From contig NZ_JAPFGB010000009.1 in NCBI RefSeq assembly GCF_026241095.1, positions 124,001-188,000 of the forward strand: a DNA stretch of 64,000 bases, given 5' to 3'. The stretch's first letter is position 1. Every line of letters starts with the position of its first letter. A program made the translations under genes and the position numbers. The notes under the pieces were generated by a model that was given only the letters and a program-made list of their open reading frames with translations, searched no databases and was not told where the DNA came from. The stretch is from Saccharopolyspora sp. NFXS83. Lineage in GTDB: Bacteria > Actinomycetota > Actinomycetes > Mycobacteriales > Pseudonocardiaceae. Of the stretch, positions 20,158 through 54,455 are shown one piece after another.

Positions 20158-20210
20158 GGAGTGAACGGACCGTTCGTCCCACAGGACTGGACGAACGGTC
20201 CGTTCACTCC
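20158..20210 (-). repeat. Dispersed nested palindrome, copy 1
   Basis: Arms GGAGTGAACGGACCGTTCGTCC and complement are intact. The loop matches the consensus better when read on the minus strand, so this is the one copy that appears reversed. It lies 25 bases upstream of the Ada-like operon. Confidence 0.85.
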
Positions 20211-20276: not shown

Positions 20277-20327
20277 GGGTGAACGGACCGTTCGTCCGAT
20301 CTCGTTGGGCGAACGGTCCGTTCACCC
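20277..20327 (+). repeat. Dispersed nested palindrome, copy 2
   Basis: Arms GGGTGAACGGACCGTTCGTCC, loop GATCTCGTT, then the complementary arm with one G for A change. Plus orientation. Confidence 0.9.
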
Positions 20328-20616
20328 GCATCTCACCGCCCGGTCGCGCCGCCACGTGAGGTAGACGTCCGGGCGGAGTGGAACGTGAGGTGCGCGCGGA
20401 CGGCTGGCGAACCAGCCCCTGCCGAGCGGAAACGTCCGATGCGGACCACGGCTGCCGGAGTCCCGGAGCGGTGGTGGTGCCCGGTCGGGCCGTCGAAGCC
20501 GCTCGGCCATGCCGAGGAACACGGTGCGTGTTCGCTCCAGTACCTTTCGTGCTGATCTCGGGTGCTCGCCGGTGTCGGGCGAGGTCCGGTGCAGTCGTCT
20601 TCTGGGGAGAGCGGTT

Positions 20617-21771
20617 TTGGGAACACTCGTCGCGCTGATGGGAATCACGGGGCTGGGCGTGATGATCTGGGCGATCGTGGTCGGGGTGCGCCGCCGTGGG
20701 CAATGGGACGGCGCGGTCCGGCGGGGCTTCTGGTGGCGATTCGGGAGCGGCTACGCGGCGATGTTCCTGGCGCTGCTCCTGGACCCGACGGAACAGAACG
20801 CCAGCACCGGTTTCCTGATGCTCACGGGCATCGGGCTGATCATCTGGGCGGGAGCCTTCGCGGTCCGGCACCCGCGCGGGTGGGACAGGGCGATCATGCG
20901 CGGGTTCGCGCTGCGGCTGGGGCCGGGGGTGGTCGTGTTCCTCGTGGCGGTCGCGCTGACGTCGCCGTCCGGCTCGACGACCCAGGTGGCCGCGGACTCG
21001 GAACCGCAACCCCCGGCGAGCGCCCCTTCCGCGAGCGCTCCTCCGTTGAACGGGCCGCCGACGACCGCGTCGCCCGCGAACGCGTTCGCGCCCGCCGGGG
21101 TGCCGGTGGGCGCCCAGCGGGCGGTGGTCGTGAGCGTCGACTCCGGCGACTCGATGCGGCTCACCCCGGTCGGCGCGGGTCCGCTGCGCGAATCCGCACC
21201 GGTGCACGCCAGGTTGCTGCACATCCGGGCGCTGGGGCCGGATCCCTGCTCCGGTGACGAATCCGCGCGGCGCCTGCGGCAACTCGCGCCCGTCGGCACG
21301 ATCGTCTGGGTGCGGCCCGATCAGGAGCCGCGGGACGAGAAAGGGCGCGACCTGCTCTACGTTTGGAACGACACCGGCGCTTTCGCCAACGTCGAGATGG
21401 TCGCGGGCGGGTTCGCCGAGGCCGAGTACGCGGCGCCGAATTCGGTGCACTGGGCGGAGATCTCCGCCGCGGGCGAGCAGGCCAGGACGGTGGGTGCGGG
21501 AGTGCGGGGCCGGTGCCGCCAAGCCGAGCCACCGCCGGAGACCTCCTCGGCGGAGCCCGGCCCGCAGCCGAACCCGCAGCCTCGGCCGCAGCCGAACCCG
21601 GTGCACCCGACCCCCTCGGAGGACGACGACGAGGAAGACGGTGGTGGGGCCGCCTACTACAAGAACTGCACGGCGGCGAAAGCTGCGGGCGCGGCGCCCT
21701 TGCACCGGGGCGATCCGGGATACGGCTCGCACCTCGACAGGGACGGCGACGGAGTCGCCTGCGAGAGCTGA
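20617..21771 (+). CDS. Membrane protein with SNase-like and excalibur domains
   Basis: About 384 residues. Three or four transmembrane helices fill the first 115 residues. A Pro/Ala-rich linker follows, then an extracytoplasmic region resembling a staphylococcal nuclease-like fold (VVSVDSGDSMRL, VHARLLHIRALG, GTIVWVRPD, AFANVEMVAGGFAEAEY). Next come a PQP-repeat and an acidic linker, and a final excalibur calcium-binding motif (YYKNCTAAKAAG, DRDGDGVACE). The nuclease catalytic arginines are not evident, so activity is uncertain. The TTG at 20617 is chosen because GGGGAGA lies six bases upstream; an ATG at 20639 is out of frame with that choice's ribosome site. Confidence 0.65.
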   Translation: MGTLVALMGITGLGVMIWAIVVGVRRRGQWDGAVRRGFWWRFGSGYAAMFLALLLDPTEQNASTGFLMLTGIGLIIWAGAFAVRHPRGWDRAIMRGFALRLGPGVVVFLVAVALTSPSGSTTQVAADSEPQPPASAPSASAPPLNGPPTTASPANAFAPAGVPVGAQRAVVVSVDSGDSMRLTPVGAGPLRESAPVHARLLHIRALGPDPCSGDESARRLRQLAPVGTIVWVRPDQEPRDEKGRDLLYVWNDTGAFANVEMVAGGFAEAEYAAPNSVHWAEISAAGEQARTVGAGVRGRCRQAEPPPETSSAEPGPQPNPQPRPQPNPVHPTPSEDDDEEDGGGAAYYKNCTAAKAAGAAPLHRGDPGYGSHLDRDGDGVACES

Positions 21772-22521: not shown

Positions 22522-23370
22522 ATGGCACACCACGAACACCAGCACTCCACCGAAGCCGACGAGTCGACGCAGCTCGCGCTGCTCGACCTCGATGCGGAAG
22601 TCCTGCACGAACACCTCTCCGAGATCACCGCCTCGCTGCGGAGGTTGGCCGAACCGCCCGTCCGCCGCGTCCTCGACCTCGGCAGCGGATCCGGCACGGG
22701 CACCTTCACCCTGCTCGACGGCTTCGAGGAGGCCACGGCGATCGCGGTGGACGCTTCCGCTCCGATGCTCGAGCACCTGTCCGAGCAGGCCGCCGCGCGA
22801 GGCGCGAGCGATCGGGTCAGCACCGTTCAAGCAGACCTCGACGAATCGTTCCCGCGGCTCGACGGCCCCGTCGACCTGGTGTGGGCCTCCGCGTCGATGC
22901 ACCACCTGGCCGATCCCGCTCGAGTCCTGTCCGAGGTCTTCGCCGCCGTGCGCCCGGGCGGGCTGCTCGCGGTGGCGGAACTGGAGGGCTTCCCGCGATT
23001 CCTGCCCGACGACCTCGGCTTCGGCCGGCCCGGCTTCGAAGAGCGCTGCCACGAACTGCTCGCCGCGAAGCGCGCCGAACACCTCCCGCACATCAGCGGC
23101 GACTGGGGGAAGCTGCTGGCCGAAGCCGGTTTCACCGTGGCGGCGGACCGGACCTTCGACATCCACCTGCCCGCGCCGGTCTCCGCCGCCACCGCCCGCT
23201 ACGCCGAGGTCTCGCTGCGCCGCATGCAGCCGTTCCTCGCCGCCCGCCTCGACGCCGACGACGTGGCCACCCTCGACACCCTCCTCGCCGACGGCCCCGG
23301 CGGAGTCCTCCACCGCGACGACCTCACGGTCCGCACCACCCGCACCTTCCTGGCAGCCACCCGACCGTGA
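22522..23370 (+). CDS. Class I SAM-dependent methyltransferase
   Basis: A 282-residue methyltransferase. VLDLGSGSGTGTFTLL is motif I, IAVDAS the acidic end of strand 2, and VDLVWASASMHHLADP motif IV of the Methyltransf_11/UbiE type. The substrate is unknown. A His-rich N-terminus (HHEHQH) may bind metal. The start at 22522 has GGAGG six bases upstream. It is paired with the divergent XRE-cupin regulator. Confidence 0.87.
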   Translation: MAHHEHQHSTEADESTQLALLDLDAEVLHEHLSEITASLRRLAEPPVRRVLDLGSGSGTGTFTLLDGFEEATAIAVDASAPMLEHLSEQAAARGASDRVSTVQADLDESFPRLDGPVDLVWASASMHHLADPARVLSEVFAAVRPGGLLAVAELEGFPRFLPDDLGFGRPGFEERCHELLAAKRAEHLPHISGDWGKLLAEAGFTVAADRTFDIHLPAPVSAATARYAEVSLRRMQPFLAARLDADDVATLDTLLADGPGGVLHRDDLTVRTTRTFLAATRP

Positions 23371-23398: not shown

Positions 23399-24064
23399 TC
23401 AGGGCCGAGGCAGGTAGGTGGCGACCTCGGCGGTTGCGTCGAGCATCGAGTCGCTGAGGTGCCCGGAGGCAGTCTCGGCTTCCGCGATCACCATCGTGCT
23501 CTTGGTCGGCCGGGAGTCGTAGTGCCAGCCGGTGAACTCGACACCGCCCAAACCGAGCGCTGAGCCTGCGAGGGGGGTGACGTCCCCGGTTCCGTGGACA
23601 TCGATCAGATTGCGGAACTCCCGCGATTGACTCCGGGTGCCCATGGTCACCCAGACCACGGACACGACAGCGATGCTCCCGTTGCCGTCGACGACGCCGA
23701 ACAGGACCCGATCCATCGATCGGCACGGTGTCCGCAGGAAGTACTTGCGAACTTGGCCGAAAGAGCGTGACGCGCATTCGACGGCGTGCTCGCCCTGCCG
23801 CTTCAACTGACGCAATCCCATGCGGCGCCACGCTTCCTCCGGCTGCCCCTTGCGGGCGGCTTTCTTGCCGTCCGCTTTCCTGGCGCTCACATTGCGTGCC
23901 GCGGCGGGGTCGGTCGCACCGGTGGGAGCGGTGCCGCTGAGTGCGGCCGAGCCACCACCACCTGCGGCGACCATCGCTCCGGCGAGAACGAAGGCCGCCA
24001 CGGCTGGGCCACCTTTGTTCGCCGGATCCGAACCGCCACCGGCACCACCGATTCGTCGTTTCAT
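23399..24064 (-). CDS. Membrane-anchored protein of unknown function
   Basis: About 221 residues. A short basic N-terminus (MKRRIGG) precedes one hydrophobic segment (AVAAFVLAGAMVAAGGGGSAA) that anchors the protein. A basic linker (ARKADGKKAARKG) and a folded outer domain with two cysteines follow. I recognise no family. The ATG at 24064 has GGAAGG at good distance. The gene is convergent with the methyltransferase gene. Base composition is slightly less GC-rich than its neighbours. Confidence 0.6.
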   Translation of the reverse strand: MKRRIGGAGGGSDPANKGGPAVAAFVLAGAMVAAGGGGSAALSGTAPTGATDPAAARNVSARKADGKKAARKGQPEEAWRRMGLRQLKRQGEHAVECASRSFGQVRKYFLRTPCRSMDRVLFGVVDGNGSIAVVSVVWVTMGTRSQSREFRNLIDVHGTGDVTPLAGSALGLGGVEFTGWHYDSRPTKSTMVIAEAETASGHLSDSMLDATAEVATYLPRP

Positions 24065-24461
24065 TCCCTGCCTTCCAGGCGAAGATCGAGGTGGAGATGC
24101 TGGCCGGTGGTTGCCGGCAGCCGCAGGAAGAACCAACGAAATTGCCCGAACAGCCTAATGTCTTCCGTCGTCTGAGTGTTCTTGAGAGCCCTCCCGAATC
24201 AGACCCGACCTGATCCACCAACGCCCGTTCCGGACCACCCGGCCTCGACGAAGCGATGTGGAGTGAGCGGACCGTTCGTCCGATCTCGTTGGTCGAACGG
24301 TCCGTTCACTCGAATCCCGTCGTCGCGGGAGGCCGGGGTCGGTGTGCCGGGAAACGAGGAGGCTTCGGGTTGCTTCGGGGTGGGGAACCGCACTCGGGGG
24401 CATCCTCGGCGGCCGAGGGGCGTCTTGAGGGGTGAGAAGCGAGTCGAGCTTGGAGGACGAC
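24065..24461. other. Divergent intergenic region with one palindrome
   Basis: About 400 bases between two divergent genes. It contains repeat copy 3 at 24261. Promoters are expected, but I cannot pick convincing boxes. Confidence 0.3.
24261..24311 (+). repeat. Dispersed nested palindrome, copy 3
   Basis: Arms GAGTGAGCGGACCGTTCGTCC and near complement, loop GATCTCGTT. One A to G change in the left arm. Plus orientation. Confidence 0.9.
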
Positions 24462-24962
24462 ATGACCACGAAATTCCGCCGCATCGCCGCAGCCACCGCC
24501 GTCGCGGGCGCCGCGTTCGGTATCACCGCGCTGACCGCGGACCCGGCCGTGGCGAACCCCAGCGACGCGCTGTGCACGAGCGCGGACGTCAACGTCGCGG
24601 TGACGAAGGACCCCGAGCACGCCGCAGGGCACGAGGCGTTCCTCATCGACTACACCGCCGCGAGCCCGACCACGAACTGCAAGCTCCAGGGCGTCCCGGC
24701 CGGGGTGAGCTTCCACGCCGGCGAGGCCCCGATCCCTGGCGTGACGGTGAACCCGGAGCGCACCCCCGCCGCGCCGGTGAACCTGACCGCGTCGAAGCCC
24801 GCGTTCTCGCGGATCGTGCAGCAGACCGGGGCGCCGGCGAACCCGACCGTGCCGACTTCCGTCGAGTTCGACCTGCGGAACGGGCACGTGACCGCCGCGT
24901 GGCCGACCGGAGAGTCGATCAAGGGCGACGTGCTGACCGCGACGCCGATCGCGCAGCGCTGA
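24462..24962 (+). CDS. Secreted protein, DUF4232-like
   Basis: A 166-residue secreted protein. The signal peptide ends at AVANPSDALC, so the mature protein starts near residue 32. The domain has two cysteines (ALCTSADV and TNCKLQGVP) spaced as in DUF4232 proteins, a beta-sandwich family common on actinobacterial surfaces with no known function. The ATG has GGAGGA seven bases upstream. Monocistronic. Confidence 0.75.
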   Translation: MTTKFRRIAAATAVAGAAFGITALTADPAVANPSDALCTSADVNVAVTKDPEHAAGHEAFLIDYTAASPTTNCKLQGVPAGVSFHAGEAPIPGVTVNPERTPAAPVNLTASKPAFSRIVQQTGAPANPTVPTSVEFDLRNGHVTAAWPTGESIKGDVLTATPIAQR

Positions 24963-25090
24963 GGCAGCCGCCACCGGGGGTGGCCGCGCGCGGAGCGGGC
25001 CACCCCGGCGCTCACCACGAGCTCGATGCCGGACCGGCTGCCTGGACGCGATCCCGGACGGACCCAGCTGGGCGCCCGGCGATGTCGTGG

Positions 25091-25139
25091 GGTGAACGGA
25101 CCGTTCGTCCGATCCGACTGGACGAACGGTCCGTTCACC
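25091..25139 (+). repeat. Dispersed nested palindrome, copy 4
   Basis: Perfect arms GGTGAACGGACCGTTCGTCC and complement. The loop (GATCCGACT) fits the plus orientation slightly better than the minus. Lies between convergent genes. Confidence 0.9.
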
Positions 25140-25252
25140 TCATTCCACCGCTGCGGCGAGCACACGATCGGGGAGTGGGGCGCGATCGTCCCGGGCGGAT
25201 GTGACGCGCCGCGAACGTCGGCGGCGCCCGTCGCTCAGTCACCGGGCGGGGA

Positions 25253-26590
25253 TCAGTCCGGCGCGCGGCGTGCACGCCGCCTGCCGAGGAAGCGCACGAA
25301 ACCGGCGCCCAAGTTGCACAAGATCAGCGCCATCCCGGCCCAGGGAAGCAGCAGCATCAAGATCCGGATCACGCCGACCGCGGCACCGGCCACCGCCCCG
25401 TCCTGGACGTGTTCGCCGAGCTCGCGGCCGTGGTCGACCAGCGCCTTGCCCAGGCCCGGCAGGACGTGCGGGGCGAGGATGAGGAAAGCGATGATCCAGT
25501 AGGCGAGGCAGGGGATCACCAGCACGACCCAGGCGGTGATCACCCGCCGCGCCCACGGCTTGAGTTCACGCAGCCGAGGATGCGGTTCCCGTCCCGGCAG
25601 CAGACTGCGCAGGACCGGGCCCATCCGGTCGAACAGGTCCGGCACGCCGACCAGGTCGCTCAGGATGTAGTAGCCGTCGAGGCGGATGGACGGCAGGAAC
25701 TGCCACACGGTCGTCGCCTGCCACGCCACCACCGACGCGAGCAGCCACGGGGCGCCGGTCCGCAGGTAGACCACGATCATGACCAGCATGGCCAGCGCGT
25801 TGAAGTAGATCCCGCCGAGGTCGGTGCGCAACCTCCCCGCCCGGTCGAGCCGGTAGGAGTCGGTCACGGTGCTGTACATGGCGGGCCACACCAGGTAGAT
25901 GCCCACTCCCATGGCTCCGGGGCGAGCGCCGCCGTAACGGCAGGCCGCGACGTGACCGCACTCGTGGAACACGCCGGCCACGACCAGCAGGCCCAGCACC
26001 AGCAGGATCTGTTCGGGCCGGTTGATCAGCGCGTGCGCGCTGGCGAGGACGCCTTCGACCCCGCCGTGCACCGCCAGCCAGATGTCGGCCAGCGCGAAAC
26101 CGGCCACCCCGAGAACCACCACCGGCGGCCAGAACAGGGGTTGGAACACGCGGGCGATGACCGCGACGACGTGCTCCGGTACCAATGCGACCCGGAACTT
26201 CAGCGCCAGCAACCGATCCCGAGCCTTCGGGGCGGCACGGCGAGCACCGTCGGCAGCCGGACCGTCCGCCACCAACCCGGCCTGGGACAGCCGGTTCTCC
26301 ACGAGGTAGGACACCTGGTCCGCGGTGATGTCACGTCCGCATCGGCCGCTGAGTTCGACCGCCACCTGCGCATAGGTCCGCTGCCCGTCCAGGACGGAGG
26401 CGAGGGAGTAGAGCAGCGGGGTGAGCTGCAGGATCTGGTCGTCCGGGCGGCGGACCAGGTACGGGGGTTCGCGGTACCCCGAACCTTGGTACCGGCCGAT
26501 CAGCTCGGTGCCCGCGACCAGTGGCGGTGCGGCGAGGTGCGCGATCTCCCCGTCGGCCGGGGGATTTCCCGGCGCGGGAGTGGTGTCCAT
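25253..26590 (-). CDS. M50-type membrane zinc protease with PqqD-like N-terminus
   Basis: A 445-residue membrane protein. The first 110 residues look like a PqqD/RRE-type peptide-binding domain (YLVRRPDDQILQLTPLL, ALDG-like VLDGQ, then QVSYLVENRLSQAGLV). About seven to eight transmembrane helices follow. The zinc motif HECGH is at 209-213 inside a helix, and a second site-2 protease motif LDGYY is at 304-308 (Asp305). This layout is that of the putative peptide zinc metalloproteases found with bacterial peptide clusters. It lies 113 bases downstream of a glycine-rich small protein gene on the same strand, its likely substrate. The ATG at 26590 is chosen; GTG 26617 is possible. Confidence 0.82.
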   Translation of the reverse strand: MDTTPAPGNPPADGEIAHLAAPPLVAGTELIGRYQGSGYREPPYLVRRPDDQILQLTPLLYSLASVLDGQRTYAQVAVELSGRCGRDITADQVSYLVENRLSQAGLVADGPAADGARRAAPKARDRLLALKFRVALVPEHVVAVIARVFQPLFWPPVVVLGVAGFALADIWLAVHGGVEGVLASAHALINRPEQILLVLGLLVVAGVFHECGHVAACRYGGARPGAMGVGIYLVWPAMYSTVTDSYRLDRAGRLRTDLGGIYFNALAMLVMIVVYLRTGAPWLLASVVAWQATTVWQFLPSIRLDGYYILSDLVGVPDLFDRMGPVLRSLLPGREPHPRLRELKPWARRVITAWVVLVIPCLAYWIIAFLILAPHVLPGLGKALVDHGRELGEHVQDGAVAGAAVGVIRILMLLLPWAGMALILCNLGAGFVRFLGRRRARRAPD

Positions 26591-26651
26591 TCGTCCCCCA
26601 AGTGATCTTTCGAGCACCGCGACTGATTGACGCCTCCCCCGAAAGTTCCCA

Positions 26652-26686
26652 GCGGCGGGCCGACGATCCTGTCGCCGACCCGCCGC
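26652..26686 (-). terminator. Hairpin between small protein and M50 gene
   Basis: GCGGCGGG and CCCGCCGC arms with further partial pairing, between the stop at 26704 and the protease start. It may attenuate transcription so that the small protein is made in excess over the protease. Confidence 0.45.
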
Positions 26687-26703
26687 GGGCGTGCGAACGC
26701 GGG

Positions 26704-27090
26704 TTACTGCGGATTGACGTTTCCGCCGCCGTCGCCACCGAAGCCGTCCCCACCGATGCCGTCCCCACCGATGCCGTCTCCACCGTCGCCACCGTCGCCG
26801 CCATCGCCGCCGGCACCGCCGTCGCCTCCGTTGCCTCCGTTGCCACCGCCTTGGCCGCCGCCGGTGCCGCCGCCGGTGCCGCCGTCGCCCCCGGTGACGT
26901 CCCCGGTCGTGACCTCGTCGTCGTGCTCGTGCACTTCCGCGCCGCCCTCGGGTTCCCCGTAGACGACGGTCACGTCGCTGCCGCCCACCGTCGGGAACGA
27001 GATCGTCGTCATGACGGAGCGGGCGGGCAGGAACTCCACTCGCTGGTCCGACACCTCTGCGGAACTCAGCGGTCGAAGATCTTCAAGCAT
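26704..27090 (-). CDS. Glycine-rich small protein with RVEFLPAR leader (A)
   Basis: A 128-residue protein with no ordinary signal peptide. Residues 17-28 read RVEFLPARSVMT, shared with the small protein at 29301. A middle acidic part (GEPEGGAEVHEHDDEVTTGD) leads to a C-terminal run of about 60 residues of GGD, GGN and GGT triplets (GDGGTGGGTGGGQ and later DGIGGDGIGGDG) ending GGGNVNPQ. A leader-plus-repeat core design is typical of a ribosomally made precursor peptide or an exported fibre protein. The ATG at 27090 has GAGGAG seven bases upstream. The M50-type protease gene follows. Confidence 0.75.
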   Translation of the reverse strand: MLEDLRPLSSAEVSDQRVEFLPARSVMTTISFPTVGGSDVTVVYGEPEGGAEVHEHDDEVTTGDVTGGDGGTGGGTGGGQGGGNGGNGGDGGAGGDGGDGGDGGDGIGGDGIGGDGFGGDGGGNVNPQ

Positions 27091-27256
27091 CGGTTGAACT
27101 CCTCTCGCGGTAATGCGGGAACAAGCGGATCAAGAGCGGAACGTGCCCGGTTCTGCTGCGGCGGACCGCTCTTGGCAGATCGACCAGGACGTTATGAGCG
27201 CCGGACCCCGTGCGCAGGCTGGTTCACTCCCCCCGGCTGTTCCCGCATTTCCGCTC

Positions 27257-27286
27257 GCGGCGCTAGTGCGCACGTGCTAGCGCCGC
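27257..27286. promoter_or_regulatory. Inverted repeat, operator or terminator
   Basis: GCGGCGCTAG and CTAGCGCCGC, a 10-bp perfect dyad with a 10-base spacer. The CTAG core is rare in GC-rich genomes. It sits about 170 bases upstream of the small protein gene. Confidence 0.4.
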
Positions 27287-27335
27287 ACCGCTCACGGCGG
27301 TTCCGGGAGCACCTTCGCCGCTGGTCGGAAGCATC

Positions 27336-27365
27336 GGGTGGCGCGCCCGAATCGGCGTGCCACCC
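27336..27365 (-). terminator. Hairpin downstream of large glycine-rich gene
   Basis: GGGTGGCGCGCC and GGCGTGCCACCC arms (11 of 12 pairs), about 55 bases past the stop at 27420. Confidence 0.5.
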
Positions 27366-27419
27366 GCTTTCGGCGCCGGGCCGCCGAGGCGCGCTCACCG
27401 ACCTCGACGTGCCCGATCG

Positions 27420-28733
27420 TCAGGAATTTCGCCGTTCCCGGTCGGCGTAGCCGACGTAGCCGCCGAATCCGCCGCCGCCGCCGATGCCGCCGATGTCCTC
27501 GATCCCGCGTAGGCCCGCCAAGCCGGAAAGGCCCGCGGTGCTGCCGACTCCTCGGCCGTCGCCGCCCGAGCCACCGTTGCCGCCGCTCCCGCCGGTCCCG
27601 GTGGTGATCCGGACCGTGCCGTTGCGGGGGATGCCGCCGGTGCTCGGGAGCCCGCCGTCGCCACCGGTGCCCCCTGTGCCGCCGTCGCCCTCCCGGTCGA
27701 AGGGCTCGCCGCCGCCCTGCGCGCGGGGGCCCTCGTAGCCTTCGCCGCCCGCACCGCCGGTACCGCCCTCGCCGCCCGCGCCACCTCGCAGTTCGACGAC
27801 GTCGTCGCCGGTGCTGATGATGGAGCCGGAGGATCCGTTGCCCGCGCCGGCGCGGCTGTTCGCACGCAGGTGGCCGCCGCCTCCGTTGCCGCCGCTCCCG
27901 CCGTTCCCGCTGCGGCTGGTGGACGTGCCGTCCCCGCCTTGGCCGCCAGTGCCACCGATCCCGTTGTCCCCGCCGGTGACCGTGATCAGGTTGGCGCCGT
28001 CCCCGCTGTGGATGCGGCCGAGGTTGCCGTCGCCGCCCTGCCCGCCGTCGCCTCCGTCGCCGCCGCGGGAGTCGGCGGGGTCGGCGCTGCCCGGACCTCC
28101 GTCGCCGCCTTCGCCGCCGTCCCCGCCCCGGCCACCGGTCACGGTGATCTCGTCGTCGCCGGTGCCCCCGTTGACCACGCCGGTTTCGGTGATCCCCGCG
28201 CCACCGCTGCCACCGCTGCCGCCTCTGCCCGCGCTGCCACCGGCTCTCGTCCCGGTGTGGTCGCCGGAGGCTGCGCGCTTGCTGCCGTCGGCGTCGGTGC
28301 CGGACTTGCCGTCACGGGCCTTGCCGCCGCCGAGGAAGCCGTTGCCGCCCTTGCCGCCGTTGCCGCCCTTCCGGCCGGTGATGATGACGGTGTCGTCACC
28401 GCCTCCTGCGTTGACGGTGCCCGCGACGGCCCCGTTCAACACGATCCGGTCGTCGCCGGGAGTGCCTTCGAGGATTTGTCCCGCCGGCACCCCGCGCCCG
28501 CAGGTGATGTCGTCGCCCGATCCGTTGAACTGCCGGGTGCACGAGGGCGGCGCCGCGTCGGCGACGGGAACCGGAGTAAGCCCGAAGGCAACGGCGAACA
28601 TGCCCGCTCCGGGCAGCACCAGCAAGCGGCGCAACGCCTTCCCGGTTCCAGGCGAGTCGCCGCCGGGGCGTGCGGTCGCCGTGTTCGGACTTTCGGGGAA
28701 GCGGCCCCTGCACCGTCGATGGATCATCGGCAC
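27420..28733 (-). CDS. Secreted glycine-rich protein with RTX-like motifs
   Basis: About 437 residues. A long signal peptide (RRLLVLPGAGMFAVAFGLTP, cleavage near VADAA) leads to a domain with GSGDDITCGRGVP and GGGDDTVIITG, which resemble calcium-binding RTX nonapeptides. At least four GDD-beta units (GDDRIVLNG, GDDTVIITG, GDDEITVTGG, GDDVVELRGG) alternate with Gly-rich blocks (GGDGGEGGDGGPG, GGTGGAGGEG) like mycobacterial PGRS sequence. This suggests a calcium-stabilised surface or secreted fibre. The GTG at 28733 has GAGGAG six bases upstream; ATG 28727 is the alternative. It lies between two genes for small glycine-rich proteins. Confidence 0.75.
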   Translation of the reverse strand: MPMIHRRCRGRFPESPNTATARPGGDSPGTGKALRRLLVLPGAGMFAVAFGLTPVPVADAAPPSCTRQFNGSGDDITCGRGVPAGQILEGTPGDDRIVLNGAVAGTVNAGGGDDTVIITGRKGGNGGKGGNGFLGGGKARDGKSGTDADGSKRAASGDHTGTRAGGSAGRGGSGGSGGAGITETGVVNGGTGDDEITVTGGRGGDGGEGGDGGPGSADPADSRGGDGGDGGQGGDGNLGRIHSGDGANLITVTGGDNGIGGTGGQGGDGTSTSRSGNGGSGGNGGGGHLRANSRAGAGNGSSGSIISTGDDVVELRGGAGGEGGTGGAGGEGYEGPRAQGGGEPFDREGDGGTGGTGGDGGLPSTGGIPRNGTVRITTGTGGSGGNGGSGGDGRGVGSTAGLSGLAGLRGIEDIGGIGGGGGFGGYVGYADRERRNS

Positions 28734-29300
28734 GACTGGCTCCTCGCTCAATGGTGGATCTTGACAAGTCGAACAGTGGAGGAGCCTAGAACCGGAGTCC
28801 TGGATTCCGGCGGAATCGAAAGCGTGATGTCGGGTTTCGTTCTTCGTGTTCATCCGGTCGGCTGAAAGGCTGATCAACAGCGTCCGCTGCGGACGGTTTT
28901 CCGGAGGTGCTCCGCATGCCGATACCGCCTCTGAATGGTTTCGGAAATTGATGTGCAGACTGTTATTATTGACGATCGATCAATGCTCGCGGTGATCTTC
29001 GCATGCGGACAAAAGCTGGATCAAAAGGGAAAATGAAAGATTTTATTTTCTGGATGTTCAAGGATCTATCAGGAAAAATGATCGGTTGCGTCACAGCGAG
29101 TCGTGGCGCTTTCCACGATCAGGCGGGGATTCCAACCTATTGTTCAACGCGGGCCGCGGATCGCTTTCTCGGGCTGCGCCGGACGTCGTGCGGCCCTACC
29201 TTCGGGCTGGCACCAACGAACTGGGGCGTTGGGTGGGGTCGGGCCTGTTCAAGCCTCGATCCGCGTGAATTCCGGAGCCCCTTCGCTGAAGGAGGATCAA
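28734..29300. other. AT-rich divergent intergenic region
   Basis: About 570 bases between the divergent glycine-rich genes. The stretch 28870-29090 is strikingly AT-rich for this genome, which suggests a regulatory or foreign origin. Apart from the palindrome at 28968 I cannot support a gene here; short open frames lack ribosome sites. Confidence 0.5.
28968..28984. promoter_or_regulatory. 17-bp palindrome in AT-rich region
   Basis: ATTGACGATCGATCAAT is nearly perfectly symmetric around CGATCG. It sits between the divergent glycine-rich genes and is a candidate operator for both. Confidence 0.4.
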
Positions 29301-29606
29301 GTGTTCGATGTGACAGGACCGTTTCGAGGGATCGAGCTCGATGCCGAACGCGTCGAGTTCCTGCCCGCGCGCACGGTCATGACGGCGTTCCCGTTCGCCC
29401 GCGGCGGCCCCACGATCAACGGCGGTGACGGCGGCACCGGTGGCGGCACCGGTGGCGGCAACGGCGGCGGTGACGGCGGCACCGGTGGCAATGGTGGTGC
29501 CGGTGCACCCGGAGGTCACGGTGGTGACGGTGGGAACGGCGTCGGTGGCAACGGAATCGGTGGCGACGGAATCGGCGGCCCCGGTGGCGGGAACATCTGG
29601 CTGTGA
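29301..29606 (+). CDS. Glycine-rich small protein with RVEFLPAR leader (B)
   Basis: A 101-residue protein and paralogue of the one at 26704. Residues 17-28 read RVEFLPARTVMT, the same motif at the same distance from the start as in protein A. After a short linker (AFPFARGGPTIN) the rest is Gly triplets (GDGGTGGGTGGGN, GDGIGGPGGGN) ending IWL. No signal peptide is visible, so export must rely on another route. The GTG at 29301 has a perfect AAGGAGGA six bases upstream, which fixes the start. It is on the opposite strand from protein A and the protease, about 2.2 kb away. Confidence 0.78.
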   Translation: MFDVTGPFRGIELDAERVEFLPARTVMTAFPFARGGPTINGGDGGTGGGTGGGNGGGDGGTGGNGGAGAPGGHGGDGGNGVGGNGIGGDGIGGPGGGNIWL

Positions 29607-29740
29607 CCTAGTCCCTGGGGGGCGGTAGGTACGTGGTGGGGCGGTCCGCCGGTCGCGGGCCGCCCCACCACGCGCGTTCGGGTGCCGATCCCTGATGTCC
29701 CGCTGCGGATCAGGCTGCGAAGCGGTCGTCTCCAGGTTGG

Positions 29741-29791
29741 GAGTGAACGGACCGTGTGCCCGATCTGGTGGGACGAACGGTCCGTTGACTC
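29741..29791 (+). repeat. Dispersed nested palindrome, copy 5 (degenerate)
   Basis: Left arm changed to GAGTGAACGGACCGTGTGCC; right arm ends GTTGACTC. Pairing is reduced. Plus orientation by loop. Confidence 0.75.
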
Positions 29792-29836
29792 CGGCTCAGC
29801 CGACGTCACGCCGTTCGGTCCGCACGTGCACCTCGT

Positions 29837-29886
29837 GGGTGAGCGGACCGTGCGCCCGAACTCGTTGGACGAAGGGTCCGTTGACT
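29837..29886 (+). repeat. Dispersed nested palindrome, copy 6 (degenerate)
   Basis: Left arm GGGTGAGCGGACCGTGCGCC, loop GAACTCGTT, right arm with GAAGGG for GAACGG. It shares the GTGCGCC/GTGTGCC type change with copy 5, so the two may have a common source. Confidence 0.75.
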
Positions 29887-29988
29887 TCATCCGGCCCTGG
29901 CTGATTCGTGTCGGGGGGGTCATGCTCCGGCGGGGGCGTCGCGACGTGCCGGACCAGCCTTCGAAGGTTCGCCCGGAATCCTTCGGGA

Positions 29989-31155
29989 TCAACCCGCCGG
30001 TTCGAACGTCACCGGCAGGTCGCGGAGGCCGCGGTTGCGGAACGACGGGCGCCAGCGCAGTTCCTCGGGCCGCACCGCCGACGCCAGGTCCGGCAGCCGC
30101 CGCAGTGCGGTCTCGAAACCGACCTCGGCTTCCATCCGGGCCAGCGGCGCGCCCAGGCAGTAGTGCGTGCCGTGGCCGAAGGCGAGGTGCGGGTTGTCCG
30201 CGCGGGTCAGGTCCAGCGAGTCCGGGTCGGCGAACACCTCCGGGTCGTGCTGCGCCGAGACCAGCGACAGCAGCACGGTCGCGCCCGCGGGCACCGCCAC
30301 CCCGCCGATCTCGACGTCGGTGATGGGGAACCGGCGGATCGCCGTCTGCGGCGGCGGGTCGAAGCGCAGCAGTTCGTCCACTGCGGACCGCAGCAGTTCC
30401 GGTTCGGTGCGCATCGCGGTGAGCTGGTCGGGATGCGACAGCAGCGCGGCGAAGCCGTTGCCCAGCAGGTTCACCGTGTTCTCGTATCCCGCGAACAGCA
30501 TCAGGAACGCGGCGGAGGTGAGCTCGTCGGCGGAGAGCCGCTCGTGCTGGGCGAGCAGCGCGCTGATGAAGTCCTCGCCCGGATCGGTGCGCTTGGCGGC
30601 GACGAGTTCCAGCAGGAACCGGTGCAGCGAACGCAACGCCTCGCTCGCGGACTCGCGGGAGGCGGGCGCGAGCATCTCGTCGGTCCACGCGCGGAAATCG
30701 GGCCGGTCCGCCGGCGGGACGCCGAGCAGCTCGGAGATCACCAGGATCGGCAGCGGGCCCGCGTAGGAGGCGATCAGGTCCGCGGCACCGGCCGGGGCGA
30801 ACACGTCGATGAGCTCGTCGGCGATCTGCTGCACGCGGGGGCGCAGGTGGTGCACGCGGAACGCCTGCGCGGTGATCCGCCGCAGCCGGGTGTGGTCCGG
30901 GGCGTCCATGTTGAGCAGGTTCGCGTCGAGGTCCGGGGGCAGCGCGAAACCCCGGTAGCCGTTCCGCGCATGTGCTTTGTCCAGCGACAGCCGCGGATCG
31001 GCCAATCCGGCGCGCACGTCCTCGTAGCGGGTCACCAGCCACACCTCGGCGCCATCCGGGGTGACCGCCCGGTGCACCGAACCCCGTTCCCGGAGCCGCG
31101 CGTACGTCGCCAGCGGCGCGGTCACGAACTCATCGCCGAGCTCGACTGCTCCCAT
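29989..31155 (-). CDS. Cytochrome P450
   Basis: A 388-residue soluble bacterial P450. The oxygen-binding I-helix reads LMLFAGYENTVN, the ExxR motif lies in AVDELLRFDPP, and the haem loop is FGHGTHYCLGAPLAR with the cysteine ligand. The acid-alcohol pair of the I-helix is replaced by Glu-Asn-Thr (GYENT for the usual GHETT), which may influence the reaction. It follows the CoxM/CoxS-type genes by 47 bases on the same strand, so it may be co-transcribed with them. Confidence 0.93.
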   Translation of the reverse strand: MGAVELGDEFVTAPLATYARLRERGSVHRAVTPDGAEVWLVTRYEDVRAGLADPRLSLDKAHARNGYRGFALPPDLDANLLNMDAPDHTRLRRITAQAFRVHHLRPRVQQIADELIDVFAPAGAADLIASYAGPLPILVISELLGVPPADRPDFRAWTDEMLAPASRESASEALRSLHRFLLELVAAKRTDPGEDFISALLAQHERLSADELTSAAFLMLFAGYENTVNLLGNGFAALLSHPDQLTAMRTEPELLRSAVDELLRFDPPPQTAIRRFPITDVEIGGVAVPAGATVLLSLVSAQHDPEVFADPDSLDLTRADNPHLAFGHGTHYCLGAPLARMEAEVGFETALRRLPDLASAVRPEELRWRPSFRNRGLRDLPVTFEPAG

Positions 31156-31202
31156 GCGACGAATCTACGACACCGCGTCGCCGGCCCGGCGGCGACGAGC
31201 GG

Positions 31203-52575: not shown

Positions 52576-52625
52576 GAGTGAACGGACCGTTCGTCCCATC
52601 CGTTGGGCGAACGGTCCGTTCACTC
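52576..52625 (+). repeat. Dispersed nested palindrome, copy 7
   Basis: Arms GAGTGAACGGACCGTTCGTCC and near complement, loop one base shorter (CATCCGTT). First of three copies in this gap between convergent genes. Confidence 0.9.
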
Positions 52626-52789: not shown

Positions 52790-52840
52790 AGGTGAACGGA
52801 CCGTTCGTCCAGTCCGGTTGGGCGAACGGTCCGTTCACTT
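52790..52840 (+). repeat. Dispersed nested palindrome, copy 9
   Basis: Arms AGGTGAACGGACCGTTCGTCC and near complement, loop AGTCCGGTT. About 98 bases after copy 8. Confidence 0.9.
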
Positions 52841-54283: not shown

Positions 54284-54335
54284 GGAGTGAACGGACCGTT
54301 CGTCCAATCCCGTTGGACGAACGGGCCGTTCACCC
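54284..54335 (+). repeat. Dispersed nested palindrome, copy 10
   Basis: Arms GGAGTGAACGGACCGTTCGTCC with right arm reading GGGCCGTTCACCC. Loop AATCCCGTT. The right arm change T to G is shared with copies 11 and 12. Confidence 0.9.
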
Positions 54336-54402: not shown

Positions 54403-54455
54403 GGGGTGAACGGACCGTTCGTCCGGTCTCGTTGGACGAACGGGCCGTTCACTCC
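54403..54455 (+). repeat. Dispersed nested palindrome, copy 11
   Basis: Arms GGGGTGAACGGACCGTTCGTCC and GGACGAACGGGCCGTTCACTCC, loop GGTCTCGTT. Shares the right-arm GGGCC with copies 10 and 12. Confidence 0.9.

Follow-up and report, generated by a model that had tools for sequence, protein, structure and literature searches.

A conserved N-terminal leader and a predicted RRE-bearing M50-type membrane protease as a probable actinobacterial pair acting on small repeat proteins

In daptide clusters, a RiPP (ribosomally synthesized and post-translationally modified peptide) recognition element (RRE) is fused N-terminally to a site-2-type protease, MpaP/DapP, and each cluster contains several short open reading frames (ORFs) with the common leader ELExMEAP and a core ending in Thr, together with genes for an aminotransferase, an alcohol dehydrogenase, a methyltransferase, a DUF-RRE protein and ABC transporters (sections of PMC10036551 on these clusters). 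The M50 protease EpeP is sufficient for production, and both cleavage and export have been proposed for it; deletion of EpeP did not abolish production, and the pearlin enzymes TglG/TmoG, M50 proteases of the membrane whose substrates are small scaffold peptides, remove a single C-terminal amino acid (passages of PMC10885120 on these proteases). Here, we describe a locus in a 64,000-nucleotide stretch of the genome of Saccharopolyspora sp. NFXS83 (contig NZ_JAPFGB010000009.1, positions 124,001 to 188,000; hereafter the window), in which two small glycine-rich proteins with the same N-terminal leader are encoded next to a predicted RRE-M50 intramembrane metalloprotease. Comparison with other genomes indicated that this locus probably represents a widespread actinobacterial pair, in which RRE-guided cleavage would remove the leader from small, signal-less repeat proteins and release their core.

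The predicted protease is encoded on the minus strand at 25253-26590, with ATG at 26590 as its likely start (a GTG at 26617 is also in an open frame). Directly upstream on the same strand lies the gene for precursor A (26704-27090, 128 amino acids, ATG start), and precursor B (29301-29606, 101 amino acids, GTG start) is encoded on the plus strand, opposite to the protease. Based on translation and leader comparison, residues 1-28 of each precursor form its leader (27007-27090, minus strand, and 29301-29384, plus strand, respectively). An earlier note on this DNA had placed the string RVEFLPAR(S/T)VMT at exactly residues 17-28 of both proteins, followed by GGx-rich tails with common GGDGGTGGGTGGG and DGIGG pieces, and had assigned neither a signal peptide; translation confirmed both patterns, and a hydrophobic N-terminus was absent from both proteins. 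Shine-Dalgarno sequences that appeared good by eye (GAGAGGAG and AAGGAGG) precede the two starts, and the C-terminal ends are NPQ and IWL. Neither precursor matched a family in NCBIfam or Pfam at an expectation value (E) up to 1. Triplet periodicity of the two GGx tails (0.65 and 0.60, vs shuffled means of 0.47 and 0.46) was within the shuffled range (maxima 0.70 and 0.74) and was not used. The place of precursor A upstream of the protease was occupied at all 13 Saccharopolyspora loci (the window among them), each of which also contained one to four opposite-strand precursor copies.

With daptide MpaP/DapP (NF041824, daptide_HExxH), the locus has in common a protease with an N-terminal RRE, here modelled, and several leader ORFs, and this family was the best NCBIfam match of the window protease. 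Its score of 105.7 bits and those of five protease relatives (75.0-98.1 bits) were below the cut-off of 300. Unlike in daptides, the leader ELExMEAP and a C-terminal Thr were absent, and the daptide gene set was not among the neighbour families found in at least three lineages or in all seven Saccharopolyspora loci compared; a methyltransferase encoded at 22522-23370 scored 38.5 bits against a daptide cut-off of 175. Membership of the daptides was therefore rejected on protease score, leader, core end and gene set. As in EpeP/YydH/LiaK (NF058609), an M50 membrane protease is combined with a small peptide, here a presumed substrate, but no enzyme family accompanies the pair, and membership of the epipeptides was rejected at 45.7 bits against a cut-off of 225. 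In contrast to TglG/TmoG, the conserved tag is N-terminal. The score against Pfam Peptidase_M50 was 12.1 bits (E 0.13; gathering score 27.2), and neither the window protease nor the precursors tested reached the cut-off of any NCBIfam or Pfam family.

Alignment of 21 proteins (the window protease and 20 relatives) supported the zinc-protease motifs that had been read in this protein from the letters alone. In the HECGH zinc motif (residues 218-222; 25952-25966, minus strand) and the RLDGYY motif, the third zinc-ligand region (residues 312-317; 25667-25684, minus strand), residues H218, E219, G221, H222, R312, D314, G315, Y316 and Y317 were invariant, while Cys within HECGH and Leu within RLDG varied. 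The protein therefore shows the HExxH and distal [LR]xDG motifs of a membrane-bound site-2 protease, and its AlphaFold2 model was mostly helical. In that model, an N-terminal domain (residues ~36-115 of the 454-residue reading; 26273-26512, minus strand) was predicted to consist of three strands (38-42, 53-56, 62-65) and three helices (67-75, 82-93, 99-110), the E-E-E-H-H-H order of the RRE fold over residues 38-110. Foldseek returned PqqD (5sxy) as top match, with a probability of 1.00, a template-modelling (TM) score of 0.65 by target length and an E of only 0.25, and the leader-bound RRE structures 5v1u and 6jx3 at ranks 26 and 36; the modelled fold is thus consistent with the RRE/PqqD-like region that the earlier note had suspected. 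When run against PDB sequences, the protease profile A3, built from 21 of 23 proteases (L023, with a stop codon, and L016 were left out), yielded two weak KSR1-type chains (E 0.019 and 0.34) that were taken as chance. At two loci (L139 and L140), each with two leader ORFs upstream, the protease runs on into a ParA/MinD-type ATPase domain, for which a Pfam scan of L140 only gave CbiA at 39.8 bits; the protease of L147 shows a similar extension start.

The leaders conform to the consensus E-L-x-x-[EQ]-x-x-E-L-L-P-x-[RK]-x-x-[LM] and are conserved, while the cores change. Among 140 leaders, E(-9) occurred in 104, L(-8) in 101, [EQ](-5) in 129 and E(-2) in 112, and at the motif end 126 had [LM] at +6 and 122 had [SAGT] at +7; the L-P columns and R/K at +3 were fixed by the search pattern. 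Leaders of 13 protease-adjacent Saccharopolyspora genes showed purifying selection, with a median ratio of non-synonymous to synonymous substitution rates (dN/dS) of 0.29 over 78 pairs. Core types (Gly-rich, Asn/Gln/Ala-rich and others) varied by clade of the protease tree, with Gly contents of 43% in Saccharopolyspora and 37% in Pseudonocardia, whereas Gly made up 2-3% of Streptomyces-like and of short Ala/Asn cores. Leaders with the string ALPDKEV accompanied long precursors of ~200-500 amino acids with repeat blocks. As expected of a RiPP, a ribosomally made precursor thus combines a conserved leader with a core that varies. In a Saccharopolyspora spinosa draft genome (L011, near 7519), the protease-adjacent precursor leaves its Gly-rich frame midway, by a frameshift or a sequencing error.

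A protease search returned 22 loci, mostly from Saccharopolyspora, with some from Pseudonocardia, Kitasatospora and Streptomyces and one from a Blastococcus bin. A strict motif search detected leader ORFs beside most of these loci, and reading of the remainder revealed diverged leaders with quite different cores. Together with the window and 69 loci fetched later, these formed a set of 92 loci, in which pairing was scored when the general leader pattern with a start codon lay 60-1,700 bp upstream of the protease on the same strand. Such a leader ORF was present at 89 of the 92 loci, vs 8 in the control region downstream on the same strand, 6 upstream on the opposite strand and 4 downstream on the opposite strand. 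The protease alone had been used to select 86 loci (83 with leader) and the leader alone to select the other six, all of which contained the protease. Two of the three misses are at contig ends (L128 and L133, with 154 and 82 bp left upstream), leader ORFs beginning another contig of the L128 genome, and the third (L022) has a diverged form. When leader profiles were built with one clade left out, after 5 of 145 pattern leaders had been dropped as chance (from L006, L008, L134, L141 and L142, each of which kept another leader), 73 of the 92 loci had their top match where it was expected; the best match was the opposite-strand copy in the window and L010, and another leader ORF of the same locus in L095 and L120.

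Among 394 genomes of the class, 58 encoded a strong protease (E <1e-80) and 58 a leader (E up to 1e-4), with both in 57 and neither in 335. The discordant genomes were G300, whose protease lies at a contig end, and G278, which has the leader but, at a contig end, no more than a fragment of the protease; this genome was also the only one with a leader among 13 that had a distant or partial M50 match only. The leader cut-off of 1e-4 was picked after the output had been seen, and at 0.01 the leader count became 62, the four extra genomes (E 8.5e-4 to 9e-3) having no strong protease. The Fisher value of 1e-66 for these genomes overstates independence because the genomes are related, and leader presence by profile A5 (in which one row was mistyped, one residue short) is partly circular because A5 was built partly from loci of the genomes scanned; leader absence by A5 in the remaining genomes is not circular. 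In 150 genomes of the family, the protease occurred in 24 and the leader, by profile A2, in 15, every one within those 24. The link between leader motif and M50 gene that the earlier note had put up for testing therefore held at both levels. A scan of 296 genomes of the phylum gave a protease match at E up to 1e-10 in 37, of which 23 were strong and 18 of these outside the class (protease only).

Starting from the leader instead, a profile search of 200 genomes of the order revealed leader clusters in four f16 genomes, and all six regions then fetched contained the protease (550-575 bits). Seven further genomes gave weak leader matches (E 0.003-0.009); of three that were read, one (L031) had the motif string apparently out of frame in a larger gene and two (L032 and L034) were without the motif. 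Two named plasmids found with the window protease, which are outside the counts and profiles, show the same pair, with leader protein and protease annotated as hypothetical in both RefSeq records.

Leader copies were not confined to the vicinity of the protease. With a broad leader profile, five ORFs were found in the window genome: two in the window and three located 394-969 bp upstream of the only other protease of the family (L082, G000:C2:141200-149000), whose cores are Ala/Asn-rich and not Gly-rich. Leader ORFs distant from the protease occurred on the same contig at >2.7 Mb (G322 and G293) or on other contigs (G514 and G208), the copy on G208:C98, with an LPDREAMS motif, having been missed by the strict pattern and found by frame reading. 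Such isolated copies exist, but in protease-bearing genomes. Since six draft genomes of genus g376 contained 8-26 leader matches vs 1-3 protease matches each (two of the latter being fragments), the leader tag probably works in trans on distant genes. In the two of these genomes that were read (L196-L215), scattered genes carried an almost unchanging leader, MSDALSFAEIDGQHVELLPARTVMSMF, in front of varied cores, most of them Gly-rich; one of these genes (L201) contains a long GGDK repeat extending into masked bases. Judged by these genomic data, leader and predicted protease family are shown to belong together, with tagged genes both near and far. For the earlier proposal of a leader served by a dedicated protease, pairing is thus supported, while Gly-rich cores are one of many types and maturation and export are kept here as presumptive steps.

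We propose that the N-terminal RRE domain binds the leader consensus and thereby would bring the small repeat proteins to the membrane, where the protease would cut near the conserved [LM]-[SAGT] at the motif end and release the repeat core. By analogy with EpeP, the core might then cross the membrane with help of the protease, and released cores could conceivably build extracellular or surface material, perhaps with a separately exported partner. For the window, the candidate partner is a Gly-rich protein with a signal-like N-terminus (27420-28727, minus strand; ORF open to 28877), in which a hydrophobic stretch is followed by SCTR...NGSG and by GGx repeats like those of the cores.

Whether other genes follow the pair was analyzed in ~9 kb flanks of 40 loci. 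The only family consistently placed across lineages was the long precursor itself (five groups, 10 loci). Families present in at least three lineage groups were scattered in place and strand: histidine-kinase-like proteins at seven loci, ABC ATPases at six, P450 and BTAD-like regulators at four each, and permeases and response regulators at three each. No tailoring enzyme family was consistently beside the pair in these 40 loci or in seven Saccharopolyspora loci, in all seven of which the Gly-rich protein was the sole common neighbour besides the pair; it occurred in 12 of 13 Saccharopolyspora loci. General synteny was seen among four closely related Streptomyces-like loci; in three of these, a MacB-like ABC transporter (named by eye) is encoded on the opposite strand at a distance of 2.7-5 kb and may represent a clade-specific transporter.

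The best reading of these data is that the repeat peptides are mostly unmodified. Guided leader removal by an RRE is classic RiPP logic (as outlined in the daptide sections of PMC10036551), and a modified RiPP, whose core is tailored by unlinked or clade-specific enzymes before the leader is removed, would fit with the Ser and Thr residues available in the cores and with the fact that tailoring enzymes can be unlinked. This possibility is nevertheless unlikely, as no enzyme family follows the pair across lineages (the widest, histidine-kinase-like, reached 7 of 40 loci), the Gly-rich protein alone is common to the seven Saccharopolyspora loci, and 13 Saccharopolyspora cores (1,216 residues) contain 29 Ser and 99 Thr but no Cys. 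Release of peptide signals by M50 proteases is known elsewhere, for example in Eep pheromone processing, and a regulator that we take to be BTAD-like lies near the second locus of the window genome and near three ParA-type loci. A role in which the protease cuts the small proteins to free a short peptide signal or regulator is, if anything, less probable still: up to 26 leader matches per genome, long repetitive cores where these were read and strong core change argue against it, as does the lack of a receptor family beside the pair.

The protein might instead act mainly as a translocator or chaperone gated by the leader, with proteolysis secondary or absent. This would be in line with the large C-terminal extensions of several protease forms and has a precedent in EpeP, for which both cleavage and export have been proposed (passages on EpeP in PMC10885120), but the HExxH and RxDG residues, invariant across the 21-protein alignment, make it very improbable. 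Glycine-rich sequence is compositionally biased, so that two duplicated Gly-rich genes might be imagined to lie near an unrelated M50 gene by coincidence; with pairing at 89 of 92 loci and in 57 of 394 genomes, and with a leader that is not of low complexity, the chance of this is negligible.

Several observations weigh against RRE-guided leader cleavage and core release, or against parts of it. Site-2 proteases normally cut transmembrane segments, and most precursors studied here seem to be without such segments. The AlphaFold2 model of the protease had a mean predicted local distance difference test (pLDDT) score of 75, with parts below 50, and that of one long precursor, at 45, was too poor for use. 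Foldseek gave no match at E <=0.001 and no site-2 protease structure among the 50 matches listed. The ALPDKEV group was weak in the leave-one-clade-out analysis (8 of 20 loci, with 12 lacking a match and a best E of 0.25). Neither in the 40 loci across lineages nor in the seven Saccharopolyspora loci was a transporter consistently beside the pair to account for export. The Gly-rich partner was not found outside Saccharopolyspora (0 of 13 Pseudonocardia-like and f16 loci), the CxxC domain discussed below went undetected at 53 of the 92 loci, those of the window's clade among them, and the likeness between cores and partners was weak, the three best of 12 comparisons reaching HHalign probabilities of 14-31%.

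In exosortase/PEP-CTERM-like sorting, many unrelated proteins share one tag and one dedicated membrane protease; these tags are C-terminal and signal peptides are present, unlike the N-terminal tag and the signal-less precursors read here. In curli (CsgA/CsgB), exported Asn/Gln-rich repeat peptides have a partner with similar repeats. A more far-reaching idea, which we regard as tentative and rather doubtful, is that the pair constitutes an N-terminal sorting system, in which one RRE-guided membrane protease cuts and exports many unrelated and unmodified repeat proteins of low complexity, which co-assemble into extracellular material with a partner of matching repeats that is exported separately (Gly with Gly, Asn/Gln/Cys with Asn/Gln). 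Of 12 core-partner comparisons, the three top-scoring ones reached 25.5, 25.4 (same clade) and 24.7 (between clades), vs shuffled maxima of 12.3, 13.6 and 12.1, and short Ala/Asn cores scored 17.0 against their own partner vs 13.1 when shuffled; most remaining comparisons were at control level. Homology to curlin was rejected, since Pfam searches with six peptides (E up to 10) and 18 long precursors (E up to 1) did not return the curlin family.

A CxxC/Asn-Gln domain, recognizable by its paired CxxC and A-x-A/Q patterns, occurred at 39 of the 92 loci, either fused to the protease (19 ALPDKEV loci and two others) or encoded by a separate nearby ORF (18 loci), and its recurrence counts in favour of the proposal. 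The likeness of its repeat to some cores was weak but exceeded shuffled controls. The 19 fused ALPDKEV loci match the CxxC profile by construction, because the profile was built from them. The L143 protein, which carries the fused domain, had no Pfam match. A separate ORF of this type lies at L164:7785-8477, and on plasmid NZ_CP107797 a separate CxxC-domain protein has a signal-like N-terminus.

Other features of the window were also recorded. An Rfam scan of 24000-31200 gave no match at gathering score, a promoter and terminator scan of 25100-29700 found none, and a phage origin of the locus was rejected, as the phage collection gave no match. A 43-bp near-palindromic interspersed repeat (GAACGGNCCGTTCG, spacer, GAACGGNCCGTTC) occurs at seven places in the window (20162-20206, 20280-20324, 25093-25137, 52579-52622, 52793-52837, 54288-54332 and 54407-54451), with looser matches near 24265, 52726, 54506, 62387 and 62601; genome-wide, 79 forward and 80 reverse matches were found (one place usually gives both), compared with none for a control pattern. 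In an ORF at 20509-21771 (plus strand), a staphylococcal-nuclease-like stretch that falls just short of the Pfam cut-off (20.1 vs 21 bits) is combined with an Excalibur calcium-binding domain at the C-terminus.

Literal leader strings were absent from the open papers searched, and topic searches turned up none whose title and abstract describe the system, subscription papers and supplements lying outside this search. The leader is not mentioned in the accessible portions of a later daptide paper (PMC12338566) or of two RRE papers (PMC12710340 and PMC7470986). The system has so far gone unnamed, yet a strong protease is present in approximately one in seven of the sampled class genomes (58 of 394). 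The leader provides a sequence tag for finding unannotated small genes, and the protease family one with a predictable substrate. The system could further show whether RRE domains also function beyond natural-product chemistry. If the cores are released unmodified, the pair would represent a secretion or sorting route and not an antibiotic pathway.

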